Source: Thelephora terrestris
Lineage: Eukaryota > Basidiomycota > Agaricomycetes > Thelephorales > Thelephoraceae
Direction of reading: 5' to 3'
Assembly (NCBI GenBank): GCA_015956445.1
Contig: WIUZ02000013.1
Span: 310,001 to 374,000 of the forward strand
Length of the DNA stretch: 64,000 bases
In this document: piece by piece, positions 1-33,906 of the stretch
How the letters are laid out: every line of letters begins with the position of its first letter
Numbering within the stretch: position 1 is the stretch's first letter
Translations under genes and position numbers: made by a program
Notes under the pieces: model-generated
Databases searched by the model: none
What the model saw: the letters and a program-made list of their open reading frames with translations, nothing else
What the model was told of the DNA's origin: nothing

Positions 1-93
1 AGGCCAAGAAAATAAAACTGCATCTCATTCAGAGAGAAATAAAATACACAGAAAACACGGAGAACAGGAGGAAAGGAGGCACGGAGTCTTGGG
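1..93. repeat. 93-bp block, inverted copy of 30073-30165
   Basis: Bases 1-93 are the reverse complement of 30073-30165 with no mismatch that I can see. At the right locus the block directly follows the 537-bp transposase fragment; here it directly precedes the same fragment. The two copies are therefore in opposite orientation while the fragment beside them is in the same orientation. What lies left of base 1 is not visible. Confidence 0.9.
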
Positions 94-623
94 CGTAGTT
101 CGCAAACACGTAAAAGGGGAAAGTACTTCTGGAGACATTGAAGCGAACAGTAAAACATATGGAGAGCGGGGCCGAATGATCGTACTGTGCGACGCGGACC
201 GGTCCCAGGAGGGAAAACCTCGAGGAGTACAGATGGCGGGGACGCTCGCGCAAAGACGCTGAGGTCACGGCTGCGGGGACGTCGCATATGGACGGAGTCT
301 GTTGAATGAATGGAGCTAGAATCTCGGGAGAGGGTAGGCCTCGGGGATCCGATAATTGAGCATTTTCTACTTGGAGGTGAGTGGAAGGACTACGACTTCA
401 GCACTGTTTGCGCACCATGTTCAGTGGGAGTACGTGCATCAACATCTCATTTCCAGAGCCAAGTGTGGTCTTCGCGAAGTGGCAGACGACGTCGGTCGAG
501 CGGATAACATGGAGTCGATTGTCCTCTTGCACACTGCAGAGAAACCCCCCCGCAAACCCAAATCGTTTGTAGGTGTTCTGTGCAACGGGATCTGCGATGA
601 GTTTGTGCTGAGAGACGACTAGG
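87..623. repeat. 537-bp block, direct copy of 29536-30072
   Basis: The block matches 29536-30072 base for base as far as I can follow it. It overlaps the preceding inverted block by seven bases (tcttggg). It includes the last part of the Tnp2 transposase reading frame at 398-623 plus about 310 bases of 3' sequence. Here the frame continues into the rest of the transposase; in the other copy it does not. Confidence 0.9.
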
Positions 624-7840: not shown

Positions 7841-8720
7841 TCAAACCCTCGGAGCGCAGGAACTGAAACACCTGATTTTCATCGGATCAAGGTAAGGCCC
7901 AACGGAAACGTACGCGATATGAATCAGGAAGAGAACTACCAACGCGGTAACAAGAATTAAGGAACAGAGAAAACTCTTCTTGATCCGGATCTTGAGCACC
8001 CAGGTAGGGGGGCGGCCGGGATGAGTACTGATCTGAGAATGGTTCGTGAGGACTCGAAAAGATCGGGGACTGCGCGAATAAAACAAACAGAATAACGAAT
8101 CCAAGCATGGCTGTTGTTTCGATTTGCAGGGAGGGCTGGGAGGGGAGGCGCCTGTGCGACACAGCTCAGCAACTGAGGAACGAAAGGGGACTACGACGTA
8201 CGGTAGCGGAGGCGATACGGATAGCATCTTGAGCAGAGAAATCGTTGGAGGTAGTATCGGTATGCCTCTGATCCTCGGGAACCTCAGCCGGTCCAACATC
8301 GTTCTGAAAATGGGGGTCAGCCAACTCCGTGCACGGAGAAGAAAACGCAGATATGCACCTCGCTCTCGTCGACCTCTTCAATGGTCGCAATCCTTTCGAT
8401 GCTGTCAGTAGAAGGGCGCGTCTGAGCGAGACTGAGTTAGACCCGCCCAACAGGCTCAAAAAGATTGAAACGACTGACGAAGACAACACCTCGAGACACA
8501 AACGAGCTTGATCTGACCAGGATATTGGCACCGGGCGCAAGATCTCTAGTCTCTGAGGCTGCTCTCTGACCGGTGGTATCTCCGTTTCCACCGGTTTCAC
8601 CTGCGGTTCCTGTGCACAGTAGCACATGAGATCAAGGTAATTGAAAAAAGCGTTAGACAGACCGGAAACGGAAATAGGTCCGTACACAGACGAACGACGA
8701 GCGACGACGGCGTTAAGCAT
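7841..8720 (-). CDS. small membrane-anchored protein, left paralogue
   Basis: I do not recognise the family. The start at 8720 opens MLNAVVARRSS and is inferred from a TATAAAT-like box about 95 bases upstream (mirror of 21290). Several short introns follow. An exon ending in NDFSAQDAIRIASAT can be joined through a GTACGT donor and a GCACAG acceptor. Immediately after that acceptor the left-arm identity ends, at about 8145. From there to the stop at 7841 the sequence is unique and codes for a proline-rich stretch and a hydrophobic helix, SLILVTALVVLFLIHIAYVS, near the C-terminus, consistent with a tail anchor. The N-terminal part is identical to the gene at 21388-22351, but the C-terminal part is not. 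The exon chain is uncertain. Confidence 0.42.
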
Positions 8721-9569
8721 AAGGAGGACTGAGATGGCTGGAGGATAGGGACGAGTGGGGAGCTTCGGTAGAAATCGATACGACGGCAGAATCTGACAAT
8801 CAAGGTCGGCATTTATACATATCTCCCCTGAATCCATATCGATCGCGCGACGCGGGCAGATGTGTCTTTCGTCTTTCAGTCGAAATGATGAAGTCACGCG
8901 TGCATGCTCGTGAGGTGCACGCACGCCCCACCTTTTTCCGACCTTCCGTAAAGTCGACACGTCTAGTTTTGCCTCGTTTTGATGTCAAGACTCGAGGCGG
9001 ACACGCCTGTCTCCCAAGTTCTTTCAGTCGTTTGTAGGATCGAGCTTGGGACCTAGACAAGATCAGTTTCCGAAACTCACCGAGTGGCAAATGAAGAAGA
9101 TATAGATTATCCGTGGGAGCGATCTTCTGGTTGTGAAAGAGCGGGATGGGTGAAATCACCCAAATCGGGTTTAGTCTACGGGGACTTGTGCCCTCGTGCC
9201 TTCAAGCTTGAGGTTTTACGTCCGAAGGCGACGGGGAAAATGCATCCGAGTGGCGACGCGTTCGAACGCGCGTATAGATGGGCGCCGGACAAAGGCGAAC
9301 ATTATCAGTTTTCATTATTTTTCAGAGCCGGACGTGCGTCACAAGTTGCTTCTTTGATCGACACCCGTCGGATCGGTCCAGAATTAAATCAGTAGATCAC
9401 AGTTCGGCGCCAAACTTGCGGCTGAAAGAGGTGGTAACTGAGCGCGACTGATAGTTATTAAATTTGCAACACGAGCTAAGTTCTACAGAATAACGACATA
9501 GCGAGACTCAGCAAAGAATTACATGCGTATCACAATCAAACTAATTGGGCAAAGCCTGGGACGAGCACG

Positions 9570-10187
9570 TCAGCGACAATACATGAGGCTGAACCAGCTT
9601 GAACCAACCTTGCCGAGAATCGAGGTGGGAATACGCGTTCCGTTGGCCCTGTGAGCTTTGAAATCCTTGACAAAACTGTGAGACACGATCAGCGTCGATG
9701 AAGAGAGAACGAGGAACAGGCAGTTACACTCACACCTTGACTGCAGTATTAACCGCGGGCCCATTCTTGACCCTCTTGTTGTACGGAATGTAACGTCCAG
9801 GACAGGTGACGACAATCTCACCTCTCCATACTTCTCCGGTAGTGGTGAAGACGGAACGGTTCGCAACCGCTTTCTGATCCCAGTATGCCGTCACAAGATA
9901 CATGTCCTTGCCGAAAACGACACGGCAATCGTGAATGGCGAGGGAGGTGCGGGTGCGGGTAAATTTCTCTTCTACGGCGATGTATCGGGGATTCGACAGA
10001 GTCTCGTTGGTGGGCACACGGGCCGTGATCTTGATGATCTTCTTGTTGGAGCGCGAAGGATGAAAGTGATAGCCCTCGTTAAATGCCCCGGACTGAAGAT
10101 TTCCTCGTTAGCGTTGCAAACGTGAAAGAAACAAGCGTCACAAAAGCGTACCGTATGCCCAGCGGGATGTTTACGGAGGACTGGCAT
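9570..10187 (-). CDS. arm gene A, unknown protein (left copy)
   Basis: No family is recognised. Three exons: the start at 10187 opens MPVLRKHPAGHT, followed by a 59-base intron (GTACGC donor, TTCAG acceptor). The main exon runs SGAFNEGYHFHPSRSNKKII through CRVVFGKDMYLVTAYWDQKA, EVWRGEIVVTCPGRYIPYNK and ends NTAVKV. A second intron leads to the last exon with VKDFKAHRANGTRIPTS and the stop at 9570. The alternating hydrophobic pattern of the central exon suggests a beta-rich fold. An earlier ATG at 10299 is in frame, but a TATATAAG box lies only about 10 bases upstream of it, so I prefer the later start. The right arm carries an identical copy at 19921-20538. The product is about 160 residues and has no evident signal peptide. 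Confidence 0.5.
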
Positions 10188-10522
10188 CGTCTCGAAGTCT
10201 GGTTGGACCGTGGAGGAGGGTTTTTGAGAAGAGGAGCCGAGATAATTGTGTGCGACGCGCGGCGTGCACAGGAGAGCAGTGGATGTGGAGGTTTGCATGG
10301 TCAAACCAACCCTTATATATGTCGAGTCTTTTGGGTGACGCATGGACGTCAGCCAGTAAGGAATCGATTGTAAGTCTTGCATGATCGCATCGGGCCGATT
10401 AGCCCTCGCGCTTAAGTCTTTGCTGAGTCTTTCGCCTTTCGATGGTGGACACTCACCTTTTACTCCCCCTCGATGAATATAAGACGAGCAAACCACCTGC
10501 CGAGGCCGACGCAGAAACAACC
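10188..10522. promoter_or_regulatory. bidirectional promoter between arm genes (left)
   Basis: About 335 bases separate the divergent starts of arm gene A (10187, minus) and arm gene B (10523, plus). Reading toward gene A there is a TATATAAG box at about 10313-10321; reading toward gene B there is GAATATAAG at about 10475-10483, roughly 40 bases before the ATG. The same arrangement is mirrored at 19586-19920. Confidence 0.45.
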
Positions 10523-11621
10523 ATGAGCACGCCCAAGTATACGCTACGCTTCCCCCGCCCGTCTACCTTCCTTCGTCGGGCGGTTATACGAGCTCGAGAC
10601 TGACGCAAGAGGTAAGTGCTTGCCTTGCTGCCGAAAAACTCTAGCGCTTCCTTCTGCCGAAAAACTCGGACGTGAACTTACATCTTGTTTCCCCCAGCCT
10701 TTCCACCGCCGTGTTTTTGCATTCCGTCGGTGGAGTATAGACGAGGACGGGAGATTGGTTTGTAAGGCAAGACACGCAGGTCGTGACTCGTGCGTTTTTC
10801 CTTTCCTTCGGAGATATGTACTCTACTGATTACTGAATATTTACCAGCCGCCCAAAACCCTACGACCGCATTTCAAGGCCGCTTGCTTTCGCAACGCCGA
10901 GCGACCAGGACACTCGCTCCCCGACCTCTCGGAACCATCCTACAAGGATGAATATCGACGGTCCAACCCTGGGTCGATTATTTCACAGCCTCGCTCCCCT
11001 CGTCAAGGAATCATCCTCGGACTTCGACTCCAAGGCCGCAGCGATATGCACTTCGCTCGGATTGGACTCCGTCACGTCTGAAGAGATCGTCAGTTCGTTC
11101 AAGACGCAATTCCTGGCCGGAGGCAGTCAAGAATCGAGGTAAGTAAGGGGAATACTGCATCACACATTCCAACGCTGATGTAGGGTCCCAGCGCTCCCGG
11201 TCGTCTGCCGCCAGAAAGTGGGCCTCACACCGGAACGATCGTGCAGCCCACTCCTGCCACTGTCATCCCATCCACGCCTACCGGTTCTTCGGTTCCTATC
11301 AGATCTCAGCGTGCCTTCTCCTCCGGTTCTAGAGGATATACTACCTGGTATTCCACGGAATCTAACGATTTCATCACTTCCCCGCCCTCCACTCTCCCAA
11401 CGTCTGCCGGGATTCTTTACCTTCACAAGAATCTTACATGTGGCACGACTCAAGTCTGGCTGTGCGACATCCGAAGAAGCTGGATCAATATCACAGATGC
11501 AGAAGGCGTCAAGCATCCAAGCCTTGCTGACAGAATTCTCCTACTCCGGTCAGATGGGTTGCCGTCGTGGCTTACGGCCACCAACTATGCCGCTGTCCAG
11601 GCTCGAAAGGAAAAGAAATGA
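10523..11621 (+). CDS. arm gene B, unknown protein; first exon frameshifted (left copy)
   Basis: No known family. Exon 1 opens MSTPKYTL as in the right copy, but a five-base tandem duplication (acgctacgct near 10540) shifts the frame and brings a stop at 10601. Downstream exons remain open: one from about 10850 contains MNIDGPTLGRLFHSLAPLVK and SLGLDSVTSEEIVSSFKTQF. It splices through a GTAAGT donor near 11140 to an acceptor near 11190 (SAPGRLPPESG), then runs through VQPTPATVIP and QRAFSSGSRGYTTWYSTES to a stop at 11621. Arm identity ends at about 11270. Beyond it the protein is only a diverged relative of the right copy (shared FSSGS, TTWY, VWL, HP.DR.L, G.P.W.TA positions). If translation starts at the ATG at 10948, a shorter protein remains possible; otherwise this copy is a pseudogene. 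Confidence 0.5.
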
Positions 11622-11823
11622 ACTTTCTTTCGCCGGGCGCTTTTAGATCTTACCCCTTTAACCAAATTCTAGTACTTATCATAGTTACTCCCACGATAAC
11701 GAGCACGAAATTATATGCATTTTTAAAAGTTGCCAGAAAGAACTCGAAATACATCCAAACTGTATCAGCGCTATAATCCCTTGTTGGGGAAGCATCCCGG
11801 CCGTACGAGTAGCTGATGGAGGC

Positions 11824-13440
11824 TCACGGGTTCTCCAACGGCAAATGGGTTGCTTGAGAATTGATGTCGTCATTGACTCCTGCCAAAATATACCGGGCTA
11901 TTGGTGCGACCAGCCGTAACAGCGGAAGCCATAAATTTTCTCCGAGTGCTCGTAATCCTGGAAGATATATCATGGAGACTACAGAAAGCACTACCAGCGC
12001 TACGTTGAGGAGATGTTGGCGACGGGCAATCCTCTGGAACACACATTAGCTAACAACTTCTTGTGAGGTAAAAAAAATCGTACGGCTGTCATGGAAGGCT
12101 GTTCTGAAGGTTGGTTTGCCAAATTTGCACTTGATTCCGTCTTTGACGTCCATATTTGAATCGAAGCCGCATTGGAAGTCCCAGTTGCAATATATCTCGT
12201 GTCATCCTCTGCGAGGTGGAATGCCTGACAGGTACTGGTAAGGTGACAGGTTGGCATAGCGGATTCTAATCCGCACCAGTGCTTGGACGAAGTCCTCGGC
12301 TGCACCGAAACAAATTAGCAGGTAGCGATGATGGAATCGAAAACTACACACGGGTATGGTCTAACGTTTGCATCGTCTCGGCGGTGTGCGCATTGAGGAT
12401 TTTGACGGTCCCAGATGTACCTCCGACGATTAAAGTATTACCCCCATCCACAAGCAGAACGGGAATCGGAACGTTGTGGTTGATGTGAAGAAGCACGGAA
12501 CGACTGAAAGTGCGATCTGGTATACTATACCAATCCAATCCATCATATAGATTAGCCACGATGATAACTTTCTCGTCAAGAGAAACCGCAGAGCTAGAGC
12601 TAGAGAAGAATGTCAGTTACAGTCACCAGGAGTTGTGCATACATACATATTGCATGTCCTCGGCGTAATCTGCCACTTCAGTTCCAACGAGTCAACGTCC
12701 CAACACCTGCAGCGGCATCCATAAATTGAGCTCTCGAATGATCAGATGTGAGGTCGGAAGAATCATACACAATACCATGATCAATGTACGACGCTACCAG
12801 CAATTTGCCGCCATCGAGAAAATGGAGGGCGCAGGCAGACGGAGTTGGAAGCTCTTCATCCAAACCGGGAAATGAAGGCGGTTCAGGGAGAGTTTGTGCG
12901 TTGTTCCAGGTAGCTGTAGTTGATTCTCGGTTAGTCGTAGGGAGAACAAGGAAAAATTCAAGGATGGCTCACAGATCGTGTGTTGCTCGAGGAGAGCAAC
13001 GTCGGGTCCATAGGAAATCGCAACCCTTGTCCCTGTTTTGTCTGTAGCGATGCAATGGATCGAACCCCCCAGCTTATCGGTCCAGACCTTGTTACGTTCA
13101 TCAACCTTCAAGTGTGTTTGTTAACGTAGTAAGTCGTGAAAGGCGAGGTAGATAAGCTTACGATCGAATGGTTCTCAAAGTGCACAGTGTGTATGTCCCC
13201 GCTTCGATAGCCGCAGAGAAGTGTCTTCGGGAACACGGGATGCCATAGCAAGGTACTGACCGGGGATACATCAATGAACCGCTTGATGGGTTTCCACGTC
13301 GACGTGGAGAAGATGAGCAGAACCCCGTCGCCACTTCCACTCGCCAAAAACTTTCCGTCCGGGGAGAATTGCAAAGCCGTGATAGAGTCAGTGTGACCAT
13401 CTGGTAGAGTTATATTGAGGGAGTATCTCGGCGTAGCCAT
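11824..13440 (-). CDS. WD40-repeat protein with C-terminal membrane anchor
   Basis: The start at 13440 opens MATPRYSLNITLPDGHTDS and leads into a textbook WD40 blade: ITALQFSPDGKFLASGSGDG, VLLIFSTSTWK. A second blade follows (LLWHPVFPKTLLCGYRSGDI). Later exons carry further blades: GGSIHCIATDKTGTRVAISY, NTLIVGGTSGTVKILNAHTA, and TRYIATGTSNAASIQIWTSK. The last exon (about 12042-11824) has a hydrophobic segment, LLNVALVVLSVVSMIYLPG, close to the C-terminus. A beta-propeller that exposes a binding platform at a membrane is the likely design; partner unknown. It is a paralogue of the genes at 14008 and 24032. At least five short introns are needed, so the edges are approximate. Confidence 0.65.
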
Positions 13441-14007
13441 GAGCAGAAGCGGGATCGAGTTCTCAGTTATGGTCGCCTATGTCTTTGAAGCCTCGACAAG
13501 GCCTCGCGCACAAAACAACTGTTGCAAAAATCCCACGTTAATCATAATCAAAGTCAGCAAGTCCGCCAATCACAAAATACTGTAATCTATGTACTGTAAT
13601 ACAAATCAGAAAAAAATCGACCGTAATTCCCGTGGGATTTTTGCGACGATATATGGATTGTGCACGTGTCTGGCAGCCGCGTCGCCCCATCGTCACCGTG
13701 CATCAGTTCCAATTTATCGATTTCACAGCCTCAGTACTCACGCTCGAGGTCAAGACGACTGATCGAGATTGTCTGCCGATGCCGGCGCGATGTACATTTA
13801 TCGACGGTTCGGAGATCCCAGTCAGGTTTGTGAGACGTCTGTAATGTACTAAAGCTAATCGTCTGGTGTTCTTTGCCATGCAGGCGATGCCGATTGTCAT
13901 TCGGGAATACCCTTGACGCATTGAAGAGATCTCAAAAAGGGCGCACAGGTGGCTCAGCATCTCTTTCATTCTTCTTCACCTCCAACTTCCAACGAATCCA
14001 ACGAACG

Positions 14008-15409
14008 ATGGTCCACTACGAGTTGACTTTCACTGTCCCCTCTCCCGGGAGTTGCACCGCTTTCGTCGAGTTTTCCCCCAGCGGTCGATTCCTTGCGGTT
14101 GGAGATCGAGATTCTTCATTGTTGTATATTCTCGACCGACGTGCTGGATTTCACCCAAATCTTTCGGTCGTTGCGCCTACAAAGCCCACAGCCCTTGTAT
14201 GGGAAACTCCCCAAACGTTCTACGTTGGTTTGGGTGACGGACGCTTCATACATTACCGAATCGATCTCAAGGGCATGAAAGTGGTGGCGGGTGTTGCGAA
14301 CCACATGTTTCGTGGAGCGTTTCCTATCACGGCGATGGCCCTTGATACAAAGTCCAAGACGCTTGTATTATCCGTAGGCCCAGGAGTCTTTGCTTTTCGA
14401 AGGGTCCGCACGACAAGTATATTTCGTCTGCTAATGGTTTGGACCAGCGCACTCACGTTCCTCAAGGTGAATTTCGCTTCATCGCCGCCATATCAAGCCG
14501 TTTCAACTTTTCAAGCGACCCTGGAAGTCCGGGGCCACCCTTCCCGAAGTCTATTTGTTTCACTGCCAACAATACACTCGTCGTTACATTTTCCCGCCAA
14601 CACATAATGTGAGCAATATGATTGCCCACCCAGGTTGTGGCCACCTCACCCTCTGCTAACAGGTCAACCGTGCTGGAGTTCGATGGAGACTCACGCCTTC
14701 ATTCTTCATTCCAGACAGCGAGGATGTGGGCGCAAATTTTTCATCTTTAGTCATCTACTAATGCAGTCAGCAATACAGAGATTGCACCGGCCTCCCCGTC
14801 TTGAAGGCCATCACTTCTGCAAGTGAGGAGGAGGTTCACCAACTTAACCGCTGTTGGATATACGGCGACAATCACATGTCCCCATTCCTTTTCATCAATG
14901 GGGGCGCAGCGACCCTCTCGAGCTCCACGACTGGTGCGGCAATAATCCGAGATACCGTCACACAGCGCGAGATCCAGTCGCTGGAACACACAGGTATTTA
15001 CCGTTTCTGCCTTTCCATGACACTTTTTGACACTTCTGCAAGGCACCACCGATCACCACGTCACGGCGATGGTAAGATCCGATTTTGGTTTTGCATTCAA
15101 ACATACCAAACATACTAATCGCATCCTTGCCCGCAAAGTCATATCACGTTTCGACTGGCAGGTACAGCGTTGTAACGGCAGATTGTGGAAAAAACGCCAA
15201 GATAAAGGTTTGGACGGCGCAGAGACCCTCCTCCCACCCTCAGGGTAAGGTAAGCCGATATCTTTTCAGGTGGGAGCTTGGGATCCTCGTTAATTAGTTT
15301 GCAGAATTATGGGTTAGCTGCACGAAAGGGATTGATTGCTGTCGTCCTGGTCGTCGCGTCGATCATCATAATGCAGGACCAAATGGGTAGGATCCTCAAC
15401 GAGGTGTGA
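14008..15409 (+). CDS. WD40-like protein with C-terminal membrane anchor
   Basis: The start at 14008 opens MVHYELTFTVPSPGS. The first blade is CTAFVEFSPSGRFLAVGDRD followed by SSLLYILDRRAG. The next is TALVWETPQTFYVGLGDGRF, then FPITAMALDTKSKTLVLSVG. Several short exons follow through STVLEFDGDSRLHSSF, SPFLFINGGAATLSSSTTG and VVTADCGKNAKIKVWTAQRP, a clear WD-type strand. The last exon begins after a TTGCAG acceptor near 15303 and codes for a helix, LIAVVLVVASIIIM, then a short tail and a stop at 15409. The blades are degenerate compared with the 13440 gene, but the architecture, propeller then single terminal helix, is the same. It is divergent from the WD40 gene on the other strand, with about 570 bases between starts. 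Confidence 0.58.
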
Positions 15410-16539
15410 CCAACATACCCATGCTTATGACACAGACTAACCTGTACCCCAGGTCTTGTGGGTTTTCTCTCATGCCACGATGATGCTCGCGCGAATGTGC
15501 ATTAATATTGGGTATTTGATTCACGGGGTTGCTGAGGACGTTGCGACAGGTTTGGCGGATAGCTTAGGTTAAACTTACTCATAAGACAACGGCGTAATAG
15601 GTAACAAACTCAGAGACGAAAGTTGGCAGGCCGTTGTGATTCAGTTGCGCTCGATTCCTGGATAAACCAAACGCGTCATAGTATGTTCCCAGGCCGGGCG
15701 TGGGCCATGCCGTCCCGGATCTGATCCGGTGATTAAAGTTAAAAGTCCCTGATCCGACTCCGGTACCTGAACCAGTATTCCGCTCGTGAGCGCTAAGTTC
15801 TTCACTCGGCTCCCCAAATCCCTCACTGTTCTCTCTCCGGTCGTCCACCATCTCTCTTTTCCGCCCTCGGAACGTGACAAAACGACCGGCCGTTTTTCGA
15901 CACATGGCGCAACACCCTTCGTTTGGCCTCAACACCACTGGTTCTTTACCTGTGCACGCGTAGCGTCCACCGCGACTCATCTCCAACCCACCCAATGCTT
16001 CGTCCTTCAGCACCTCCACCTTTGCCCTTGCCGCTCCCAAATTTCTCTCTCCTAACTGTACGGGTGTCAATCCATTGATCCCGGTTATTTTTACGCCCAA
16101 CGGTTTCGGCCACCAGTACCTATCCCAAACTTTTGTTCCCCTCCCTCGTCCTCGACTCTCCCCATCTCTCTCACTCTCCTCCCTCTCGAATCTCGCCTCT
16201 TCACGCAAATCGGCAACTTCTCAGCCCCTCGTTACCCCAACACCTTGAATTCTGGAACAAATTCGGAGGGACAACGAGTTAACGCTGAGTGGATCGCGCC
16301 CTTTCTTTGTACCCTCTCTTTTCTCTCTCGTCTTATTGACCCATTTTCAATTTGATTCTCGCGTATTTTTGACTTCTATCAAATCCTCCTTAGCCGCTTC
16401 CAGACCAACGTCGGACCCCCCCCCCCCTCACTTCCCCGGACTCACCGACCTCCGCGACGCCAACACCTGCTGCACCGCAAAATCTCCTCCCTCTCTACCC
16501 TCCGGTCGAGTTCTGAGAACTCGCGCCTCAACACTTCCC
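15410..16539. other. gene-free stretch with low-complexity C/T tract
   Basis: The longest frame is a minus-strand one at 15579-16208 rich in arginine, glycine and glutamate, with no motif I trust. The plus strand from 16130 to 16530 is pyrimidine-rich, with a run of ten or more C near 16420. I see no gene. Confidence 0.4.
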
Positions 16540-16760
16540 TCAATATTCATCATCGACATCCAATCCGAGCTCAGGCCAGATTACGAACAGGCGAGCAACG
16601 TGTTGCTCGAGATGCTCCTCAACGCCGCCACCGGCACCCTGCCCCAAAATTCTGCGGCATCCATATCTCGATGGACCGGCCCCGATCCCGTCGTCGTCCA
16701 GGTTCAATACATTCTCTACGCGACGCTGTGCGGCCAATCGTCCTCCCGGAAGCGGCGGGA
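16540..16760 (+). pseudogene. DUF6535-domain remnant
   Basis: One exon-sized piece matches the start of the DUF6535 domain found complete at 34971-36500: IFIIDIQSELRPDYEQASNV, then WTGPDPVVVQVQYILYATL, against FIIDVQSNLQP and WTGPPPEIIKVQSLLYSSL in the intact gene. The reading then breaks into an arginine-rich run where the second membrane segment and the GKQWVNRY motif should be. The upstream LIFAGLFSAV segment is also missing. It is a decayed fragment of a multicopy membrane-protein family of unknown function. Confidence 0.6.
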
Positions 16761-17155
16761 TCGCCGACGGACACCCCAATTCGTGGGAGGGGGGTGGTGT
16801 ACCCGCCGCTGGAAGCCACGCCCACAATACATGACACGCTGAGGGACGTATATTTCGGTACTTGATAGACCTTCCGTGATGTACGTAGGGCTCTTACAAA
16901 AAATGACTTGCCAAACATACCGTTCGTGCTAAGAAAAGACTTCCTGTTCCCCCTCAGTCGTGGGCCATGCCGCTTGTCGGCGCTAAGTATTATATACACT
17001 TCCACCCTTTCCCGATATAGGACAATGATCCCCGATTTGGAAAATGAAGAAAACATAAGCAATGAGATGTATACGCGACGCGAACTTGAAGGCCATAGAT
17101 ACTGGGGAAAACATCTCGTGGGTTCTCTAACAACTTAACGGCAATTAATTGGCCT

Positions 17156-18217
17156 CTAATCATCGATGCCTGTAAGGTCGATGGTGTTGGAAGGCTCCTC
17201 ATTCTCGCTCAACTGGTAATCCATATCATCGGTGTCCATTTCCTCCACATCTTGTTCCTCAAAAAACTCCGCAAAATCCAAGGGAGGTAGCGGCTCTACT
17301 TCTGCAACCTCTCCGGACGTTGCACGAACTGCCTCGATCAACGTTTCGTGCGAATGATCTCGCACCGGGAGCTGCGTCGAGACCCTTCGGCAGGAGGGGC
17401 AGGACGTTCCACCGCTAGCGTGCCACCAGGTAATGAGGCATGCGGCGCAGAAAATGTGCCTGCATTCGGTGCTTGGATGATTCTTAAGCCCAAGATCGAC
17501 CGCTATCATGAGAATGAAAACTCACCTGTAGGGTTCGTTGAGGGTACCTTGACACACTCCGCATATCACGGACTCCTCAACGCGTGTTCGCAAATCTTGG
17601 AGCTCCTGCAAGGCGGTTTGAGCGAGCAAGTTTTGTGGGACAAAGTTTCATACCGATTTAGACGCAGTGGCCTCATTGCGAATGGCTTCTGTCTCTGCAG
17701 ATAACGTAGCGCTGCGGGTTTCTGCGCTGCGGACCTTCTCTTTCAGTCCCTTGATCTTGTCTTTCATTTCGCGGACCCGCTTATCTTGCTCAAGATCCTT
17801 TGCTTTGGTGATACGGTGCAGTTCTGCGTGAGCTCCAATAAGTCCTTCAGCGATATGAAGTTTCTTTTGACAATCTTCGAATCTGGCCCCGAGAACTTGA
17901 AGACGTTGCGTGAGTGCTTCGCATTTCTGTCGTGATGGCTGTCAAAGCTAAGAACATCCGCAATGAAGATCACTTACCTTCTGTAGGGCCGATAGCCCTG
18001 GGTCTGTTTCGTCGCTGAGGGTGCCTGCGGACAGAACCGCCTTATTTTCACCACGAGCGTGAAAGTCACTCTTGATCTTTCGGGTCTGGCTGGGGATAGT
18101 TTTCCCATAGCGAGCGCGAGTGGAAGCGCCGGGACTCGCACGAGACTGATGAGTAGAACTGCCTACGCGATGCATAATGGCCGCGAACTCTTCCGAAAGG
18201 ACTTGCGAGCTCGACAT
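17156..18217 (-). CDS. RING-finger protein with coiled coil (probable E3 ubiquitin ligase)
   Basis: Four exons. The start at 18217 opens MSSSQVLSEEFAAIMHRVG, a basic serine-rich head. After an intron with a GTAAGT donor near 17975, exon 2 encodes a long heptad-rich helix (DQDKRV-like, then KDKIKGLKEKVRSAETRSAT) that should form a coiled coil. Exon 3 starts ELQDLRTRVEESVICGVCQG. Joining it through the CCAAG acceptor gives a full C3HC4 RING: C-x2-C, then TECRHIFCAAC, then TSCPSCRR. A tail of about 70 residues is very acidic (EEQDVEEMDTDDMDYQLSEN) and ends near DLTGIDD. RING proteins of this kind pass ubiquitin from an E2 to a substrate; the substrate is unknown. The gene sits in the spacer of the inverted repeat, convergent with nothing nearby. 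The choice of last intron acceptor is mine, because it restores the third cysteine. Confidence 0.75.
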
Positions 18218-18460
18218 GAGGGGACACGGTGAGCAGTGGCGTAGGGTACGAAGCGAAGGTACAAGAGAAGGAGGTAATAGCCTCGTGCCTGTCAGGTGAC
18301 ATCTTCCGGAACTTCTGGAGGCCGAGGAACTCAAGGTGAAGTGCGGCGAACACGAGGGAGTTTCACTTTCACGAGTGCCTGGCAGCCGGAACTAGTTCCT
18401 TCTGGAGATGAGGACGAAATAGCATACGGCACACAGCTACTAAACACGTATGATGACAAG

Positions 18461-19585
18461 CTACTCAAAAACTTTGGTCTTGCCTTTGCGACCACGAATT
18501 GTGGTGAAACTAGCGGCCGTGATCCAATTTGGAGTCCCATTCGCCCTCATGCTCAGCACCCGATCGTCGATGGCTGGATGGTACACCTTCTCCATATCTG
18601 TGACGCACTTCCACTTGTAATCCATTCCCCACAACCAGACGTGGTAAATATCGAGTACTCTGTTATGATGGATATAGAGATCACCAATCGCTGGCGCGAC
18701 ATCTCTGGGCGGGGAGTCAATGTCGCAAGCGGTAGAGGTGGTGTACCACGTAGTTACGCCAGGAGATCCAGATGAGAACGCCCGCTGTTGCTTAAACGGA
18801 GTGAGGTTGGATGTGGAGGACGAAGCGGTGGGGGGGGGCGGGGGAACGGGAGCGGATGAGGGTGGGATGACAGTGGCAGGAGTGGGCTGCACGATCGTTC
18901 CGGTGTGAGGCCCACTTTCTGGCGGCAGACGACCGGGAGCGCTGGGACCCTACATCAGCGTTGGAATGTGTGATGCAGTATTCCCCTTACTTACCTCGAT
19001 TCTTGACTGCCTCCGGCCAGGAATTGCGTCTTGAACGAACTGACGATCTCTTCAGACGTGACGGAGTCCAATCCGAGCGAAGTGCATATCGCTGCGGCCT
19101 TGGAGTCGAAGTCCGAGGATGATTCCTTGACGAGGGGAGCGAGGCTGTGAAATAATCGACCCAGGGTTGGACCGTCGATATTCATCCTTGTAGGATGGTT
19201 CCGAGAGGTCGGGGAGCGAGTGTCCTGGTCGCTCGGCGTTGCGAAAGCAAGCGGCCTTGAAATGCGGTCGTAGGGTTTTGGGCGGCTGGTAAATATTCAG
19301 TAATCAGTAGAGTACATATCTCCGAAGGAAAGGAAAAACGCACGAGTCACGACCTGCGTGTCTTGCCTTACAAACCAATCTCCCGTCCTCGTCTATACTC
19401 CACCGACGGAATGCAAAAACACGGCGGTGGAAAGGCTGGGGGAAACAAGATGTAAGTTCACGTCCGAGTTTTTCGGCAGAAGGAAGCGAGAAGACGCTTA
19501 CCTCTTGCGTCAGTCTCGAGCTCGTATAACCGCCCGACGAAGGAAGGTAGACGGGCGGGGGAAGCGTATACTTGGGCGTGCTCAT
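18461..19585 (-). CDS. arm gene B, unknown protein (right, intact copy)
   Basis: This is the unbroken counterpart of 10523-11621. Exon 1 from 19585 reads MSTPKYTLPPPVYLPSSGGY and ends at a GTAAGC donor. A short exon PFHRRVFAFR follows; an exon containing MNIDGPTLGRLFHSLAPLVK comes next, and a last exon runs from about 18940 to the stop at 18461. The joined model is about 300 residues with open phases throughout. The upstream and middle exons could instead be two separate genes. Inside the arm (above about 18863) the sequence equals the left copy. Below it the tail has its own proline/serine linker, then QRAFSSGSPGVTTWYTTST, IGDLYIHHNRVLDIYHVWLW and PNWITAASFTTIRGRKGKTK. The paired Trp and aromatic positions suggest a folded beta domain. 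No function is assigned. Confidence 0.52.
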
Positions 19586-19920
19586 GGTTGTTTCTGCGTC
19601 GGCCTCGGCAGGTGGTTTGCTCGTCTTATATTCATCGAGGGGGAGTAAAAGGTGAGTGTCCACCATCGAAAGGCGAAAGACTCAGCAAAGACTTAAGCGC
19701 GAGGGCTAATCGGCCCGATGCGATCATGCAAGACTTACAATCGATTCCTTACTGGCTGACGTCCATGCGTCACCCAAAAGACTCGACATATATAAGGGTT
19801 GGTTTGACCATGCAAACCTCCACATCCACTGCTCTCCTGTGCACGCCGCGCGTCGCACACAATTATCTCGGCTCCTCTTCTCAAAAACCCTCCTCCACGG
19901 TCCAACCAGACTTCGAGACG
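19586..19920. promoter_or_regulatory. bidirectional promoter between arm genes (right)
   Basis: This is the mirror of 10188-10522 with identical sequence. TATATAAG at about 19788-19796 faces gene A (start 19921), and the reverse-strand GAATATAAG near 19626-19634 faces gene B (start 19585). Confidence 0.45.
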
Positions 19921-20538
19921 ATGCCAGTCCTCCGTAAACATCCCGCTGGGCATACGGTACGCTTTTGTGACGCTTGTTTCTTTCACGTTTGCAACGCTAA
20001 CGAGGAAATCTTCAGTCCGGGGCATTTAACGAGGGCTATCACTTTCATCCTTCGCGCTCCAACAAGAAGATCATCAAGATCACGGCCCGTGTGCCCACCA
20101 ACGAGACTCTGTCGAATCCCCGATACATCGCCGTAGAAGAGAAATTTACCCGCACCCGCACCTCCCTCGCCATTCACGATTGCCGTGTCGTTTTCGGCAA
20201 GGACATGTATCTTGTGACGGCATACTGGGATCAGAAAGCGGTTGCGAACCGTTCCGTCTTCACCACTACCGGAGAAGTATGGAGAGGTGAGATTGTCGTC
20301 ACCTGTCCTGGACGTTACATTCCGTACAACAAGAGGGTCAAGAATGGGCCCGCGGTTAATACTGCAGTCAAGGTGTGAGTGTAACTGCCTGTTCCTCGTT
20401 CTCTCTTCATCGACGCTGATCGTGTCTCACAGTTTTGTCAAGGATTTCAAAGCTCACAGGGCCAACGGAACGCGTATTCCCACCTCGATTCTCGGCAAGG
20501 TTGGTTCAAGCTGGTTCAGCCTCATGTATTGTCGCTGA
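19921..20538 (+). CDS. arm gene A, unknown protein (right copy)
   Basis: Identical copy of the gene at 9570-10187 and the same three-exon structure. Exon 1 is only 36 bases (MPVLRKHPAGHT). The second intron is joined so that the GTGAGT donor leaves GT, which with the next exon gives VFVKDFKAHRANG. The last exon ends FSLMYCR at 20538. No frameshift separates the two copies, so either or both could be expressed. Function unknown; the alternative upstream ATG is at 19809. Confidence 0.5.
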
Positions 20539-21387
20539 CGTGCTCGTCCCAGGCTTTGCCCAATTAGTTTGATTGTGATACGCATGTAATTCTTTGCTGA
20601 GTCTCGCTATGTCGTTATTCTGTAGAACTTAGCTCGTGTTGCAAATTTAATAACTATCAGTCGCGCTCAGTTACCACCTCTTTCAGCCGCAAGTTTGGCG
20701 CCGAACTGTGATCTACTGATTTAATTCTGGACCGATCCGACGGGTGTCGATCAAAGAAGCAACTTGTGACGCACGTCCGGCTCTGAAAAATAATGAAAAC
20801 TGATAATGTTCGCCTTTGTCCGGCGCCCATCTATACGCGCGTTCGAACGCGTCGCCACTCGGATGCATTTTCCCCGTCGCCTTCGGACGTAAAACCTCAA
20901 GCTTGAAGGCACGAGGGCACAAGTCCCCGTAGACTAAACCCGATTTGGGTGATTTCACCCATCCCGCTCTTTCACAACCAGAAGATCGCTCCCACGGATA
21001 ATCTATATCTTCTTCATTTGCCACTCGGTGAGTTTCGGAAACTGATCTTGTCTAGGTCCCAAGCTCGATCCTACAAACGACTGAAAGAACTTGGGAGACA
21101 GGCGTGTCCGCCTCGAGTCTTGACATCAAAACGAGGCAAAACTAGACGTGTCGACTTTACGGAAGGTCGGAAAAAGGTGGGGCGTGCGTGCACCTCACGA
21201 GCATGCACGCGTGACTTCATCATTTCGACTGAAAGACGAAAGACACATCTGCCCGCGTCGCGCGATCGATATGGATTCAGGGGAGATATGTATAAATGCC
21301 GACCTTGATTGTCAGATTCTGCCGTCGTATCGATTTCTACCGAAGCTCCCCACTCGTCCCTATCCTCCAGCCATCTCAGTCCTCCTT

Positions 21388-22351
21388 ATGCTTAACGCCG
21401 TCGTCGCTCGTCGTTCGTCTGTGTACGGACCTATTTCCGTTTCCGGTCTGTCTAACGCTTTTTTCAATTACCTTGATCTCATGTGCTACTGTGCACAGGA
21501 ACCGCAGGTGAAACCGGTGGAAACGGAGATACCACCGGTCAGAGAGCAGCCTCAGAGACTAGAGATCTTGCGCCCGGTGCCAATATCCTGGTCAGATCAA
21601 GCTCGTTTGTGTCTCGAGGTGTTGTCTTCGTCAGTCGTTTCAATCTTTTTGAGCCTGTTGGGCGGGTCTAACTCAGTCTCGCTCAGACGCGCCCTTCTAC
21701 TGACAGCATCGAAAGGATTGCGACCATTGAAGAGGTCGACGAGAGCGAGGTGCATATCTGCGTTTTCTTCTCCGTGCACGGAGTTGGCTGACCCCCATTT
21801 TCAGAACGATGTTGGACCGGCTGAGGTTCCCGAGGATCAGAGGCATACCGATACTACCTCCAACGATTTCTCTGCTCAAGATGCTATCCGTATCGCCTCC
21901 GCTACCGTACGTCGTAGTCCCCTTTCGTTCCTCAGTTGCTGAGCTGTGTCGCACAGGCGCCTCTCTCCGTTCCCTCCCACCAAATCAGAAGGGCAGGGGT
22001 GCGGGCACCACTTAGAAGGGTAGGCGGTGCAACATGCAGCCATAGAATCGATGGCTGACTTTCATCTACCTTAGGTTGTTTATCACCGAAGCGAGATACG
22101 GATCGTGGTACGCTCTGCTCTGATCCCCTTCCTATACCCAACTGACAAGTCCATAGCTCCACAGCCAAACAAACCCTGGGTATATCGACGTGAAAGTCCG
22201 TGTCTCCATGGCATATCTGATCTGGTTCATGGTTTTTCTAGCCCTTCTTGCCGTTCTTGGCCAGTGGGCTAGCGTTTCTTTTGTGCGATACCTTGAGTAT
22301 CTTGAAGAATTCTACATCTGTTGGGGCAATTGTTACCGCGTTGTTGCGTGA
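21388..22351 (+). CDS. small membrane-anchored protein, right paralogue
   Basis: The start at 21388 (MLNAVVARRSS) lies about 95 bases after a TATAAAT box at 21290-21297. Exons up to about 21912 (ending NDFSAQDAIRIASAT) are identical to the left copy at 7841-8720. The next acceptor (GCACAG, 21956) lies just inside the arm, which stops at 21963. Beyond it the sequence is unique. The last exon encodes a hydrophobic helix, MAYLIWFMVFLALLAVLGQW, and a tail with LEYLEEFYICWGN before the stop at 22351. Both paralogues therefore end in a membrane helix, though with unrelated bases. The middle exons are uncertain. An alternative upstream frame from 21148 is open across part of the gene, but it runs through likely introns. 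Confidence 0.42.
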
Positions 22352-23932: not shown

Positions 23933-24031
23933 TACATATTTGTGTACCAATCATCATTTGTTCCCATCCCACAAGTCGAATTTATCTCGTTGTAGTCCTC
24001 CACGTGACCGATTTCACCACAGACAACGATC

Positions 24032-25655
24032 ATGATGTCCGGGGGTGAGTACTCCACCGAGGCAATCCTCAAAGGGCACACCTCTTCCATCGTCGCCTTG
24101 GAATTTTCTCCTGACGGAAAGTTTCTCGCAAGCGGCGCCAAAAACGGTGTCGTGCTGATTTTTTCAACGTCCTCTTGGGTGTCCTTAGGCAATTTTATCG
24201 ACGCCTCTCCTATCTCCGTCGTGAAGTGGTACGTCGGGAGGCGGTACCTCCTATTCTGCGGACACCAGAGTGGGGATGTACATCTTTTGACATTCACGGG
24301 AGCAGTGGTGATTTCTTCCTTGTTGACGCTATCCTCCCCCTGATCACCACCGTGCAGGAAAGGATCGTCGTCGGGACTTCAACGTTCAATGGACCCATCC
24401 GCTCTATGTCAATATTCCCCGCGTCCCGTCGCGCTGCTATCGCTTATGGCAGCGAAATAGTTCTAACGAAGGTTCTCTTCAACCCACCCCAACTCAGTGA
24501 CGAACGGAAACCATTGCCAAAGCCACCTTCCGCCTCCCAGTTCTCTACAAAACTATCCGAGCCAATTGCGACGTCACTTCATTTTTTCGGGAACAAGGAC
24601 CACCTTCTCGTAACGTACGCAACCCACGGTATAATGTACGTTATAACGCTTGTCCGATCTACAAATCTCTCACACAACCAGTCACTGGGACACTTCTTCC
24701 ATGACAGTCGTCCGAAGCATTACCCCAAGGACGTGCACAATGTACGTGGGGTTGCAGTCATGCGATATCTCCTGGAAACTGACACACCGGCAGAGGGAGA
24801 TCGGTCGTCAATCGGGAAAACACCATATTGGCGGTACCGAACCTCATCGATGGCGTGGACTGGTATTCTCTGTCTAAATATACCTTCATATCCACCACCA
24901 AACCTCTCTATGCACAAAAACTGTCCGACTCCTCGACACCTACCTTTCTCGAGGGTGATAAAATGATCGTTGGTGGGACCAATGGGGAAGCTCATATCTT
25001 CGGCCCGGAGAATCTCTTTGGCAGCTTGGGGCACACTGGTACGCGTCTCCTTCTATATTCTCCTTTATCTATGCTCCTACAACGAACGTCCCAGGTGCAG
25101 AGGATATATTATCGACGGTGCGCAAATGTTTTGTATACTTAGGTGCGCCAATCCTTACGTCTTCTCTCTTCGACCAGTCGTTTGCATCCAATGTAAGGGG
25201 TCGAAAGTTCATTGCCATCGGGGCTGCAGGATTTCCCGGAGCAGCGGGGATTACAATTTGGTCGGCAGTGTCGAGAAGGAAGTACATCAGGCCGTTTGCC
25301 ATGTTCAAAGATGCCATCCCTACGGTAAACTTGACCCACTATTGCTAGATTCGTGCTCACTGATTCCGACAGACCCTCGCTTGGAACCAAATTTTGGTCC
25401 TCACCACATTGCTACTCCTCAGTTCCGCCTGGGTCGTTCACCTGATTGGCGAGTTGATGCCAATCTAGATCGCGTACTACATCATGGGACAGTTTTCCAG
25501 TGCGGCTGTACTTTCGTTTATCTTTTGTACGGGGGCGGTATCTGCGCGATTGGAATCAGGCGTCGTGATCCAGATTTTTTCAAAGTATTATGTAAGCAAC
25601 ACACTCTTGATCATCATGGATCCAGGTCATGAAAATTCCTCTGGCCCGCTGTTGA
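24032..25655 (+). CDS. WD40-repeat protein with C-terminal hydrophobic segment
   Basis: Two ATG codons in tandem at 24032 open MMSGGEYSTEAILKGHTS. The first blade is SIVALEFSPDGKFLASGAKN followed by GVVLIFSTSSWVS, very close to the gene at 11824-13440. Further exons have KWYVGRRYLLFCGHQSGDVH, GPIRSMSIFPASRRAAIAYG, GDKMIVGGTNGEAHIFGPEN and RKFIAIGAAGFPGAAGITIW. Near the end a hydrophobic stretch with SSAAVLSFIFCTGAV matches the terminal anchor of the two sister genes. A GTAAGC donor near 25592 and a CCAG acceptor near 25624 give a short last exon (VMKIPLARC) and a stop at 25655. Without that splice the frame stays open into the next gene. The position between the repeat protein and the JmjC gene suggests a clustered, co-oriented set. 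Confidence 0.62.
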
Positions 25656-29535: not shown

Positions 29536-30072
29536 TCTTGGGCGTAGTTCGCAAACACGTAAAAGGGGAAAGTACTTCTGGAGACATTGAAGCGAACAGT
29601 AAAACATATGGAGAGCGGGGCCGAATGATCGTACTGTGCGACGCGGACCGGTCCCAGGAGGGAAAACCTCGAGGAGTACAGATGGCGGGGACGCTCGCGC
29701 AAAGACGCTGAGGTCACGGCTGCGGGGACGTCGCATATGGACGGAGTCTGTTGAATGAATGGAGCTAGAATCTCGGGAGAGGGTAGGCCTCGGGGATCCG
29801 ATAATTGAGCATTTTCTACTTGGAGGTGAGTGGAAGGACTACGACTTCAGCACTGTTTGCGCACCATGTTCAGTGGGAGTACGTGCATCAACATCTCATT
29901 TCCAGAGCCAAGTGTGGTCTTCGCGAAGTGGCAGACGACGTCGGTCGAGCGGATAACATGGAGTCGATTGTCCTCTTGCACACTGCAGAGAAACCCCCCC
30001 GCAAACCCAAATCGTTTGTAGGTGTTCTGTGCAACGGGATCTGCGATGAGTTTGTGCTGAGAGACGACTAGG
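29536..30072 (-). pseudogene. truncated 3' end of the Tnp2 transposase gene
   Basis: Direct copy of 87-623. It holds the last 76 or so codons of the transposase (from SQHKLIADPVAQNTYKRFGF to the stop at 29847) and the 3' flank, but nothing of the rest of the protein. At 30072 the similarity to the transposase stops and the 93-bp inverted block begins. It is a dead fragment. Confidence 0.85.
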
Positions 30073-30165
30073 CCCAAGACTCCGTGCCTCCTTTCCTCCT
30101 GTTCTCCGTGTTTTCTGTGTATTTTATTTCTCTCTGAATGAGATGCAGTTTTATTTTCTTGGCCT
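30073..30165. repeat. 93-bp block, inverted copy of 1-93
   Basis: Exact reverse complement of bases 1-93 by eye. It adjoins the transposase fragment on the left and ordinary single-copy sequence leading to the ubiquitin remnant on the right. Confidence 0.9.
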
Positions 30166-30179
30166 GAAACTCAAACTAG

Positions 30180-31400
<1,221 letters not shown>

Positions 31401-31839
31401 CCTACTACTGCTTGTACTGTATATACGCATATCTATGAGATCTATAACCCGGGCACGCTCGATTAGGTCGCGATGTCGACATCGTCCACGAAGGCCCCGA
31501 CGTTGAAACGAGCGACCCCGAGCGACTCGCTAACAACCCCCGACCCGACGCGCGATGCGACCGGAACCGGATGTAGATAGATCCCGACGGCAAGTCTGAT
31601 CTCCACACAACAACGAGATCCGACGTCGTTTTCGTGTCGGGATGTACCCAAACCGAAAATGTGGCGCGAATGCTGAGTTCTTTCTTAAATCAGGCCAGCA
31701 TGGAGTTGGCGGATACATTGAAGGAGTAAATTTAAAAAGAAGGCTCTCCACGAGCATGGGAGATACATAAGTAATTTCATATATAAAGTATTTACTGTAA
31801 AGGGCGCGAGCCCGCCTTGGACCCATCCTGGTGTCCTTT

Positions 31840-32340
31840 GTAAAATCGATCTCAATGTGCCCTGGCGCTTCGCGCTGGGCACATTCCCGATCACTTTTTG
31901 ATCGGCCGCGGGATTTTCTTTCAAAAAGTGCCTCGCGCGTTCGTCGCGCGCGAATAGTGGCCACTTTTGCAATGTAACCACCCCGGGTACATGGGGTGCG
32001 TGTTGGTGGCATGTAGTTCAAATTAGTAGAATATTTACCATAATTTCTGACTGACCTTGGGAGGTTTAATGTGGTCACATATAGAATTAGTTTGCTGGGT
32101 ACATTTTGAAAGTGACCCGCAATGTGACCTTGCTGCGATCGGGGGGTCCTGTGCTGGGTTGATTGAGGTGAAATTTAAAAAGTAGTTGATGGGGGATTGT
32201 TTGTATATATTGAGGTTATGTTGGAAAAAAAATCAGGCCGGGTTGCCAGGGTCTGGTGTGGCTGAATTGTGAGGTACATTGTAAAAGTGACCTCTATGTA
32301 ACTGGTGGTTTCGTGGTGGAGGCTTTGTTTAAGAAATCAC
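31840..32340. repeat. hairpin-rich non-coding repeat
   Basis: Several perfect short inverted repeats occur in a row: aatgtgccc/gggcacatt at 31853-31885, cgatca/tgatcg around 31890-31905, and cgcgcg/cgcgcg near 31938-31950. The motif gtacattttgaaagtgacc recurs in variants at 32088, 32272 and (reverse form) near 31955. It looks like remains of a small non-autonomous element or a stack of related elements. No coding capacity. Confidence 0.45.
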
Positions 32341-32389
32341 AATGTAATCAGGATGGAAACCCCGGGTAAGTGGGGGTCTGCCCCAGTGG

Positions 32390-33906
32390 GAGCAGTTGTC
32401 TAGCACTGCGAAGGTTGTAGAGAATAAGCATCCTGGCTCGAGTTTCACGTTTCACGATATCGATGGGATGAGCCTCGGAGAATCCATTTGGTCGAAAGGG
32501 TTGACCGGGGAGTCGATTCCCCATCCGCCGTTGGCCAAGAGCCGAGAGCAGGGTATAAACAACCTCATGCATATGCTAGCGGGTTGGAGTGGAAAAGGTG
32601 AGGAGCCCATTATTGTTATCTTGCCCCCTGTGCGACTTAGATGCCGATGGCTCGCCATTTCATAGAGTACGTCAGAATCGTCGACAGTTGCAAGAACATT
32701 ATAAATGCGGTCGATCCTAACATTGTGGTCGTGGACTCGTTCTTCGGCGCGGGTTGCGAAGCGTGCTGGTCCTTGAGCAAGAGGTACATCGTTAACTCTC
32801 CCATGGCGCCCTTGGACGTCGCAAGACCTCTTCAGCCGATGTGGAAGAACTTTTTTTACTACCCCTTGTAAGCCCTTCAATACTCCCCTTCATCACCGGC
32901 GGCGACTTACACCCCGTCTTACGGGCTCGCAGTATTGGGAGTGGCATACCATTCCCGATTCCATGGTCTTACGTCCTCAAAAACGTGACGATACTCCTCG
33001 TTTTCATGTGGCGTGTACTCACCGACCCAGACGTCAAAGAACTGACAAACTACCGTCACGAGCACAGTCTCCCGGGGAGGCTCCCATTTGGAGATCTCTC
33101 AATCATCCGATCCGTTCACGCATTCTGCTTCGGTATACCCGAACTCGAACTCCCCCTAATCCTTCCGCCAAAAGTCGGTCTCTACGGACCGGTCACTCTC
33201 GATTCTATCCCGCTTTCAAGGGGAGACGAGTTGAGCGAATGGTTGGATGGGGGAAGGACGATCGTGATGTGCATGGGATCCCACTTCCACTACTCCGAAG
33301 CTCAAATCCGTAGCACCATCAGAGCATTCAGAGCAGGGACTTCACCTACGGACCAGGTGTTATGGAAGATACGGAATATGGCAAAGTTCCGGCGTGTCCT
33401 CGACGAGGAGTTGGAAAATGAGAGGGTGAAGGAGAGGTTCAGGATCGTGGAGTGGATCGATGTGGATCCGGGTGAGGTTATCAAGCACGAGAACGTTGTG
33501 GCTTATGTCCACCATGGAGGCGCGAACTCATATTTTGAGGCAGCGCGGTAAGCGTGCGACCTTCCTCCTCCTCTCGTAATGTGAACTCGTCAGCTCAGGT
33601 TGCTGACGGTGTCTTCACAGAGCTGGCGTCCCTCAAATTATCCTCGCACAATGGTTAGACCTCTACGACATGGCGGTCCGTGCAGAGTACGTCGGTATCG
33701 GGATCTACGGCAACCAAAGCGTCGCACCCGACATCGATGCTGTAGAGTTCGGAGCTGCGATCTCTCGATTACTCTCTCCAAGTGAGGAAGCGGAAAAGTG
33801 CGCGCGAAGGGCGAGAGAGATTGGGGAACTATGTAGGGCGGCTCCTGGGAAGAAAGGCGTGGCCGCTAAGATTCTGGACTTGGCTGAGGACGAGAACCTT
33901 CAGTAG
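32390..33906 (+). pseudogene. 5'-truncated, frameshifted UDP-glycosyltransferase copy
   Basis: It aligns with 38820-40349 at roughly 95 percent. The copy starts abruptly inside exon 1 at the SSTAKVVENKHPGSSF position, so the N-terminal 50 or so residues with the start codon are absent. Near 32650 a deletion replaces the LAENVDRIEYV section and shifts the frame, giving a stop at 32665. The remaining exons are still open, including VHHGGANSYFEAAR and LYDMAVRAEYVGIGIYGNQS, so the decay is recent. No promoter from the intact copy is present. Confidence 0.82.

Follow-up and report, generated by a model that had tools for sequence, protein, structure and literature searches.

Two old classes of gene tail beyond inverted arms very probably kept identical by gene conversion at several loci of Thelephora terrestris

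How can two facing copies of a gene be identical up to a point within their coding sequence and be only distant relatives beyond it? The question is raised by a 64,000-nucleotide stretch of the Thelephora terrestris genome (assembly GCA_015956445.1, contig WIUZ02000013.1, positions 310,001 to 374,000), hereafter the window, which lies on a contig that we call C5. The window holds a pair of inverted arms about 3.1 kb long, each of which carries a copy of one gene (gene A) and the N-terminal part of a copy of another (gene B). Past the arms, each gene B copy runs into its own C-terminal tail, of a kind that we call class I on one side and class II on the other. We propose that the arms are very probably kept identical by repeated nonallelic gene conversion between the facing copies. 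The features that this proposal concerns are as follows.

8145..11273, no strand: left inverted arm (copy A), the exact complement of 18860-21963 bar two insertions or deletions (indels)
18860..21963, no strand: right inverted arm (copy B), from direct alignment with copy A
10523..11621, + strand: class II copy of gene B, its N-terminal part in the arm and its own C-terminal domain outside; the exon 1 frame is disrupted
11274..11621, + strand: class II tail beyond the arm, from the edge alignment, the genome tail search, and the tail tree
18464..19585, - strand: class I copy of gene B, 315 amino acids, BJ322DRAFT_1111514, a spliced model with its ATG at 19585
18464..18859, - strand: class I tail beyond the arm, from the edge alignment, the genome tail search, and the tail tree
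10540..10544, + strand: 5-bp tandem duplication in copy A only, from the arm alignment; which bases of a tandem duplication are numbered as the extra ones is a matter of convention
10616..10645, + strand: local stretch inserted or replaced in copy A alone, within intron 1 of gene B, from the arm alignment

Direct alignment resolves the arms into three exactly complementary blocks of 2401, 72, and 629 nucleotides, and thus there are zero substitutions in about 3.1 kb. Identity is 1.00 per 50-column window throughout the arms, the two copy A indels aside, and is at background beyond both ends; coding, intronic, and intergenic DNA are all present within the arms and are equally identical. At the inner edge (11270 and 18863), identity per 50-column window drops from 1.00 to a value near 0.5 within the last exon of gene B, while at the outer edge, weak similarity persists for about 24 bp and gives way to background. 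Both edges therefore fall within open reading frames (ORFs), as an earlier note on this DNA had claimed, and its description of the arms as identical inside and diverged outside is borne out by the plot of identity across the edges. The only two differences between the arms lie about 75 bp apart, both in copy A (window 10540-10645), and they may represent one event or, possibly, an assembly error. The 5-bp duplication disrupts the exon 1 frame of the class II gene B, a point that the earlier note did not make, and the insertion at about 10616-10645 adjoins a splice donor and resembles neighboring sequence.

Arms without substitutions would suit a fresh inverted duplication, in which a single recent event copied one block without its flanks. 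However, the tails past the inner edge are homologous and saturated. The window's two gene B tails are 41% identical over 126 amino acids (expect value, E, of 4.9e-28) and have the motifs FSSGS and TTWY in common, which confirms the earlier note's view of the downstream exon as a diverged relative that shares these motifs. The stretch of gene B outside the arms makes up the last 110 or so codons and is saturated at synonymous sites.

The design is not confined to the window, as evidenced by searches of the genome (60 contigs, 40.6 Mb, one assembly). A class I tail query found 28 places, and a class II tail query again found 28. Twenty-two of these places form 11 pairs of facing genes spaced 3.6 to 12 kb apart, all 11 convergent, and in each pair, one member scores at least 135 bits with the class I query and the other at most 107 bits. 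The pairs lie on contigs C5 (the window), C2, C59, C20, C56, C16, and C23, with two more on C45 (C45a at 50 kb and C45b at 2.1 Mb) and two on C12 (C12a at 1.55 Mb and C12b at 2.29 Mb); the remaining six places, on C1, C12, C16, and C60, hold singles or fragments. Since C20/C56 and C16/C23 are near-duplicates at 97.8 to 99.9% identity and C45a/C12a match at 98.9% on the class I side, we counted each of these sets once, as alleles or recent copies, which leaves eight loci. Each of the eight has one class I and one class II tail. The arms of C2 are 99.7% identical along 3068 bp, and those of C59 are 99.6% identical along 3062 bp. Comparisons of partial arm pieces gave 98.9% at C20, 99.7% at C56, 97.8% at C45a, 86.5% at C45b (main piece), 85.1% with many gaps at C12b, 75.0% at C16, and 74.3% at C23.

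Deposited protein models agree with this picture. The spliced class I gene B model is 100% identical to a deposited T. terrestris protein, P0001 (BJ322DRAFT_1111514), and the class II gene B is deposited as P0007, an NCBI model of 206 amino acids that starts downstream of the frame disruption. The tails of two further models, BJ322DRAFT_1108087 (P0046) and BJ322DRAFT_1108084 (P0068), are 100% identical to the C56 tails; aligned with each other, these two proteins are identical at 228 of 235 positions upstream of the motif KQERPF and at 44 of 110 from KQERPF on. A profile search with gene B, in which at most 7991 candidates were scored, returned at least 69 proteins, and the listed matches that carry an organism name are all from T. 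terrestris or T. ganbajun. The class II tail is present in T. ganbajun (P0067), and so the tail classes probably predate the species. Another T. ganbajun protein, P0048 (BDM02DRAFT_3132981), seemingly joins gene A-like and gene B class I parts in one chain and is possibly a fusion of neighboring gene models.

The two tail classes are old and constrained. Within a locus, class I and class II tails differ by 0.52 to 0.60 nonsynonymous substitutions per site (dN) at all eight loci; synonymous substitutions per site (dS) amount to 1.5 to 4.3 at four loci and are incomputable, that is, saturated, at the other four. Within a class, the closest locus pairs give a tail dN/dS of about 0.06 to 0.18. Predicted alone, the class I tail would form a beta-rich domain (mean pLDDT, the predicted local distance difference test, of 91.2). 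Between loci, dS is 0.49 for the N-terminal part and 0.76 for the class I tail when the sister loci C59 and C12b are compared, and 0.53 and 0.78, respectively, for C5 versus C1a. Thus, the N-terminal parts diverge from locus to locus about as fast as the tails do, and their equality does not extend beyond a locus.

Phylogenetic trees made this conflict explicit. The tail tree was built from 24 of the 28 places (C12:1545402, the partner of the C12a gene; C12:1432101 and C12:1444425, which are distant; and C1:3382718, which is partial, were omitted), and the arm tree used 22 of these 24 rows, leaving out the singletons C60 and C16b. Both carry FastTree supports taken after re-rooting. In the arm tree, each locus forms its own group, seven of them at 1.0 and C20/C56 at 0.96, whereas the tail tree recovers class I as a clade at 0.99. 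Approximately unbiased (AU) tests, together with IQ-TREE analyses, used 16 rows, one pair for each of the eight loci (without the near-duplicates C56, C12a, and C23 and the unpaired genes C1a, C60, and C16b); here, the tail class split and each of the eight arm pairs have a support of 100. Forcing the tails to group by locus was 408.7 log-likelihood units worse (AU p 5.3e-6), and forcing the arms to group by class was 7486.6 units worse (AU p 3.2e-55), so both constraints were rejected. This conflict indicates that the tail class split is older than the spread to the loci and that the arms have been equalized within each locus since. A fresh duplication at one locus does not account for arms that track locus and tails that track class at eight loci.

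Near-duplicate loci allow individual variants to be followed. The arms of C20 and C56 give 1518 columns free of gaps, of which 22 are variable; 16 of these have the pattern AABB, in which the two arms of one copy agree against those of the other, one is ABAB, by side, and five are single. Among the three arms of C45a/C12a, 14 of 23 sites are AAB, with both C45a arms set against C12a. By contrast, at C16/C23, where the arms are about 75% identical, 605 of 610 sites sort by side, five are single, and none sorts by copy, which indicates that conversion has ceased there. The C20/C56 pattern points to repeated, recent homogenization and not to one fresh duplication, an explanation that we regard as highly improbable because the shared variants would require homogenization again and again. 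The contrast between C20/C56 and C16/C23 also argues against an assembly artifact, in which two alleles or a collapsed repeat were placed as an inverted pair. That idea draws on the use of a single assembly in which some loci appear twice at 97.8 to 99.9%, suggesting partly separated haplotypes. Nevertheless, sequence past the arms differs on both sides at C5, C2, and C59, the arms of C2, C59, C20, and C45a carry differences, and the design is repeated at eight loci; we find an artifact hardly credible.

Taken together, the arms are more alike within a locus than between loci in coding and noncoding DNA alike, as is expected of concerted evolution. The tail homology, the saturated tails, and the C20/C56 variants support the earlier note's central proposal, that old inverted paralogs have been homogenized by gene conversion. 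Two further expectations of that note also hold: synonymous divergence is absent inside the window arms and at least 1.5 or incomputable for the tails at all eight loci, and the tails form classes, two in number, with one of each per paired locus and class II extending to T. ganbajun.

The gene content of the arms and their surroundings bears on how such pairs arose and rearranged. The remaining features of the module are the following.

9600..10298, - strand: gene A copy A, start codon at 10298, end approximate
19810..20508, + strand: gene A copy B, the mirror of copy A
10299..10522, no strand: 224-bp gap, copy A, from which gene A and gene B start in opposite directions (start codons 10298 on the - strand and 10523 on the + strand)
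19586..19809, no strand: the same gap in copy B, the mirror of copy A
7841..8144, - strand: type b outer C-terminal ORF past the left arm, containing a hydrophobic stretch, from its similarity to type b of C2
22157..22351, + strand: type a outer C-terminal ORF past the right arm, containing a hydrophobic stretch, from its similarity to type a of C2
12347..13476, - strand: exons of the interior WD40 gene (W1), Pfam WD40 at 5.6e-10, with counterparts at other loci
17156..17521, - strand: last exons of the interior RING-finger gene, Pfam zf-C3HC4 at 2e-6, with counterparts at other loci
24008..24343, + strand: exon of the outer WD40 gene (W2), Pfam WD40 at 7.8e-9, with WD40 matches beside other loci

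Gene A matches the deposited BJ322DRAFT_1111515 (98% over 94% of its length), in a cluster of three member sequences. Neither gene A nor gene B has a significant Pfam match, and among 20 window ORFs scanned with Pfam, nothing was recognized besides the interior WD40, the interior RING finger, and the right-side outer WD40. The 224-bp gap is presumed to be a shared promoter of gene A and gene B; since it lies inside the arm, both copies share one presumed promoter. Gene A is paired, the identity being the same for both members of a pair, at C5, C2, C45a, C20, C56, and C12a, and is a single copy at C45b, C16, and C23, with fragments on C1.

At the outer edge, the earlier note had given each copy its own unrelated C-terminal helix. 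Each side does have its own ORF with a hydrophobic stretch, as judged by a simple scale, but "unrelated" goes further than the data, which prove neither common descent nor unrelatedness of types a and b: a comparison of type a with type b stands out in one of four shuffle comparisons. As judged by sequence comparison, the outer ends are of two types that recur at C2 and C45b. When the outer tails of C5 and C2 were compared, none of 500 shuffles reached the score for type b against type b, and one of 500 did so for type a against type a. The genome search with C2 queries found the window's type b at an E of only 0.023 and did not list the window's type a among its matches, so that the similarity of the latter rests on shuffling. 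No outer-tail counterparts were evident at C59.

At the three fully measured loci, the arms are much alike in length (3062, 3068, and about 3129 bp), and the loci are dispersed and share interior genes. This might also suggest a transposable element with long terminal inverted repeats, whose ends would be the arms and whose insertions would be the loci. Insertions should have unrelated flanks, but the outer ORFs and the outer WD40 gene are common to C2 and C45b and, more weakly, to C5, and no transposase was recognized among the 20 window ORFs scanned. A transposon is therefore very unlikely.

The same markers reveal an inversion between C2 and C45b, which are sisters in both the tail and the arm trees. 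In both loci, the outer WD40 gene lies on the left (C2:604973 and C45:2102759), followed by type a, also on the left (C2:606814 and C45:2104593; 59% identical, E of 3.6e-19), and type b lies on the right (C2:619063 and C45:2118551; 69%, E of 1.6e-26). Class I, however, occupies opposite sides, the left in C2 (610144) and the right in C45b (2115301), while the interior WD40 gene adjoins class II in both. This marker order means that the block between the arms is inverted relative to the flanks, with breakpoints inside the arms. We take this inversion to be the product of crossovers between the arms, the one clear case of it. The window has the C2 arrangement, its outer types being recognized weakly.

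A mechanism that would unite these observations starts from an old inverted pair of gene blocks. In the window and at C2, each block would hold gene A, the N-terminal portion of gene B, and an outer ORF whose tail is membrane-like. Repeated conversion between one block and its facing partner would keep the two alike and would stop where the copies are too diverged to pair, namely, in the C-terminal domain of gene B on the inside and in the outer tail on the outside. Occasionally, a conversion event would resolve as a crossover, flipping the enclosed block. Selection to keep the two tails distinct may help to exclude conversion from them.

Several observations weigh against conversion as a general and lasting account of these loci. 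In the 24-row tail tree, class II is unsupported as a rooted clade, and the singleton C60 is basal to class I at 0.79. At C45a/C12a, the other nine of the 23 sites, within 55 columns of the tail start, lack the converted pattern. Homogenization is weak or gone at C12b, C45b, and C16/C23, three of the eight loci, and having lapsed there, it is not indispensable. In the window itself, a 5-bp duplication breaks the exon 1 frame of the class II gene B, unless it is an assembly error. Gene A searches found no match at C59 or C12b, although the C59 arms are 99.6% identical, and the outer types were found only at C2, C45b, C1, and, weakly, C5; given these gaps, the evidence does not extend the three-gene arm to all loci. 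Finally, all of the results come from one assembly.

What conversion is for, if anything, is a separate matter. The purpose that the earlier note put forward, N termini held uniform while C termini vary, would be compatible with the sequence. The arrangement would provide a co-expressed pair of proteins that combine a common N-terminal part and a common promoter with two effector tails, a tentative suggestion from sequence to which we give somewhat less than an even chance. A serious rival is passive concerted evolution, by the same mechanism and with only the benefit in dispute: nearby, alike repeats convert, and identical N termini follow without being of use. In the arms, introns and intergenic DNA match as fully as coding DNA does, and conversion has lapsed at some loci, as a passive process would allow; moreover, in the text available to us of a report on a Saccharomyces flip/flop repeat, the authors named no source of pressure (PMC9731477). 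On the other side, the pair organization has been kept at eight diverged loci, and in the pairs compared, both tail classes are under constraint. Gene loss favors neither side, since gene A is single at low-identity C45b and C16 yet was not found at high-identity C59. We put the passive account close to even odds. A bolder idea, that the cassettes form a Thelephora-specific, genome-wide flip/flop system in which sets of proteins come in two flavors, conversion holds their shared parts and promoters equal, and inversion re-pairs types a and b with classes I and II, for example, in mycelial self/non-self recognition, seems unlikely to us.

Other observations concern the interior and the surroundings of the module. 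The interior WD40 and RING ORFs are common to the six loci compared at the protein level (C5, C2, C59, C20, C16, and C12b), and their order and strand vary, with four arrangements among the six; the interior has thus been rearranged beyond simple arm-mediated inversion. At 3.31 to 3.40 Mb, C1 carries a broken-up relative of the window module: it has a gene B of class I, part of a second tail, and numerous repeats within it, and one of its gene A fragments contains a stop. A second inverted repeat of 2323 bp (99.87%), with an adjoining 537-bp direct repeat (100%), flanks the whole module at a spacing of about 30 kb (window 1-623 and 29536-32388; contig C5 307777-310623 and 339536-342388), and these repeats are perhaps copies of a mobile element. 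A direct repeat of about 1.5 kb, 91.6% identical, lies at window 32389-33902 and 38819-40342.

In the literature searched, we found no match for a system that spans several loci, has its arm edges inside genes, keeps two old tail classes, and combines conversion with inversion. There are, nevertheless, at least two systems that resemble parts of it, here compared as far as the available text of each report goes. First, primate SIGLEC11 and SIGLEC16 are two oppositely oriented genes, head to head and about 9 kb apart, in which a region of about 3 kb with the N-terminal exons is kept alike by repeated gene conversion while the rest has diverged, so that the converted region groups within each species (PMC5701461). 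An N-terminal part made alike by conversion and a diverged C-terminal part are likewise what we found in the Thelephora pairs, and in both systems, one partner carries a small frameshift, a 4-bp one in an allele there and a 5-bp one in the window. SIGLEC11 and SIGLEC16 occupy one locus and are immune receptors with known opposite signaling (PMC5701461), whereas the Thelephora genes are arranged tail to tail at eight loci of one fungal genome, the window edges lie inside genes on both sides, and the proteins have no recognized relatives.

Second, the Centroid inverted repeat of the Saccharomyces flip/flop system is about 4 kb long and gene bearing, is homogenized within strains and species, and accompanies recurrent inversion of the enclosed region, with a lineage-restricted gene family at one locus (PMC9731477). 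It shares with the Thelephora modules the fungal setting, the homogenized inverted repeat, the enclosed block that inverts, and the lineage-restricted family. Thelephora differs in having several loci, edges inside genes, and two old tail classes; in the available text, no class-specific diverged tails are described for Saccharomyces (PMC9731477). The CEACAM and CD300 families, in which activating and inhibitory receptors are treated as pairs and gene conversion is a term of the papers (PMC2832619 and PMC12447643), are animal immune receptors and are likened to the Thelephora genes by description only.

Compared with these systems, T. terrestris offers eight natural replicates in one genome for studying how far conversion reaches, at which point inside a gene it stops, when it lapses, and how it turns into inversion. 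If the paired-protein interpretation is true, these loci would be to a fungus what paired receptors are to animals, and the same DNA process would maintain both.

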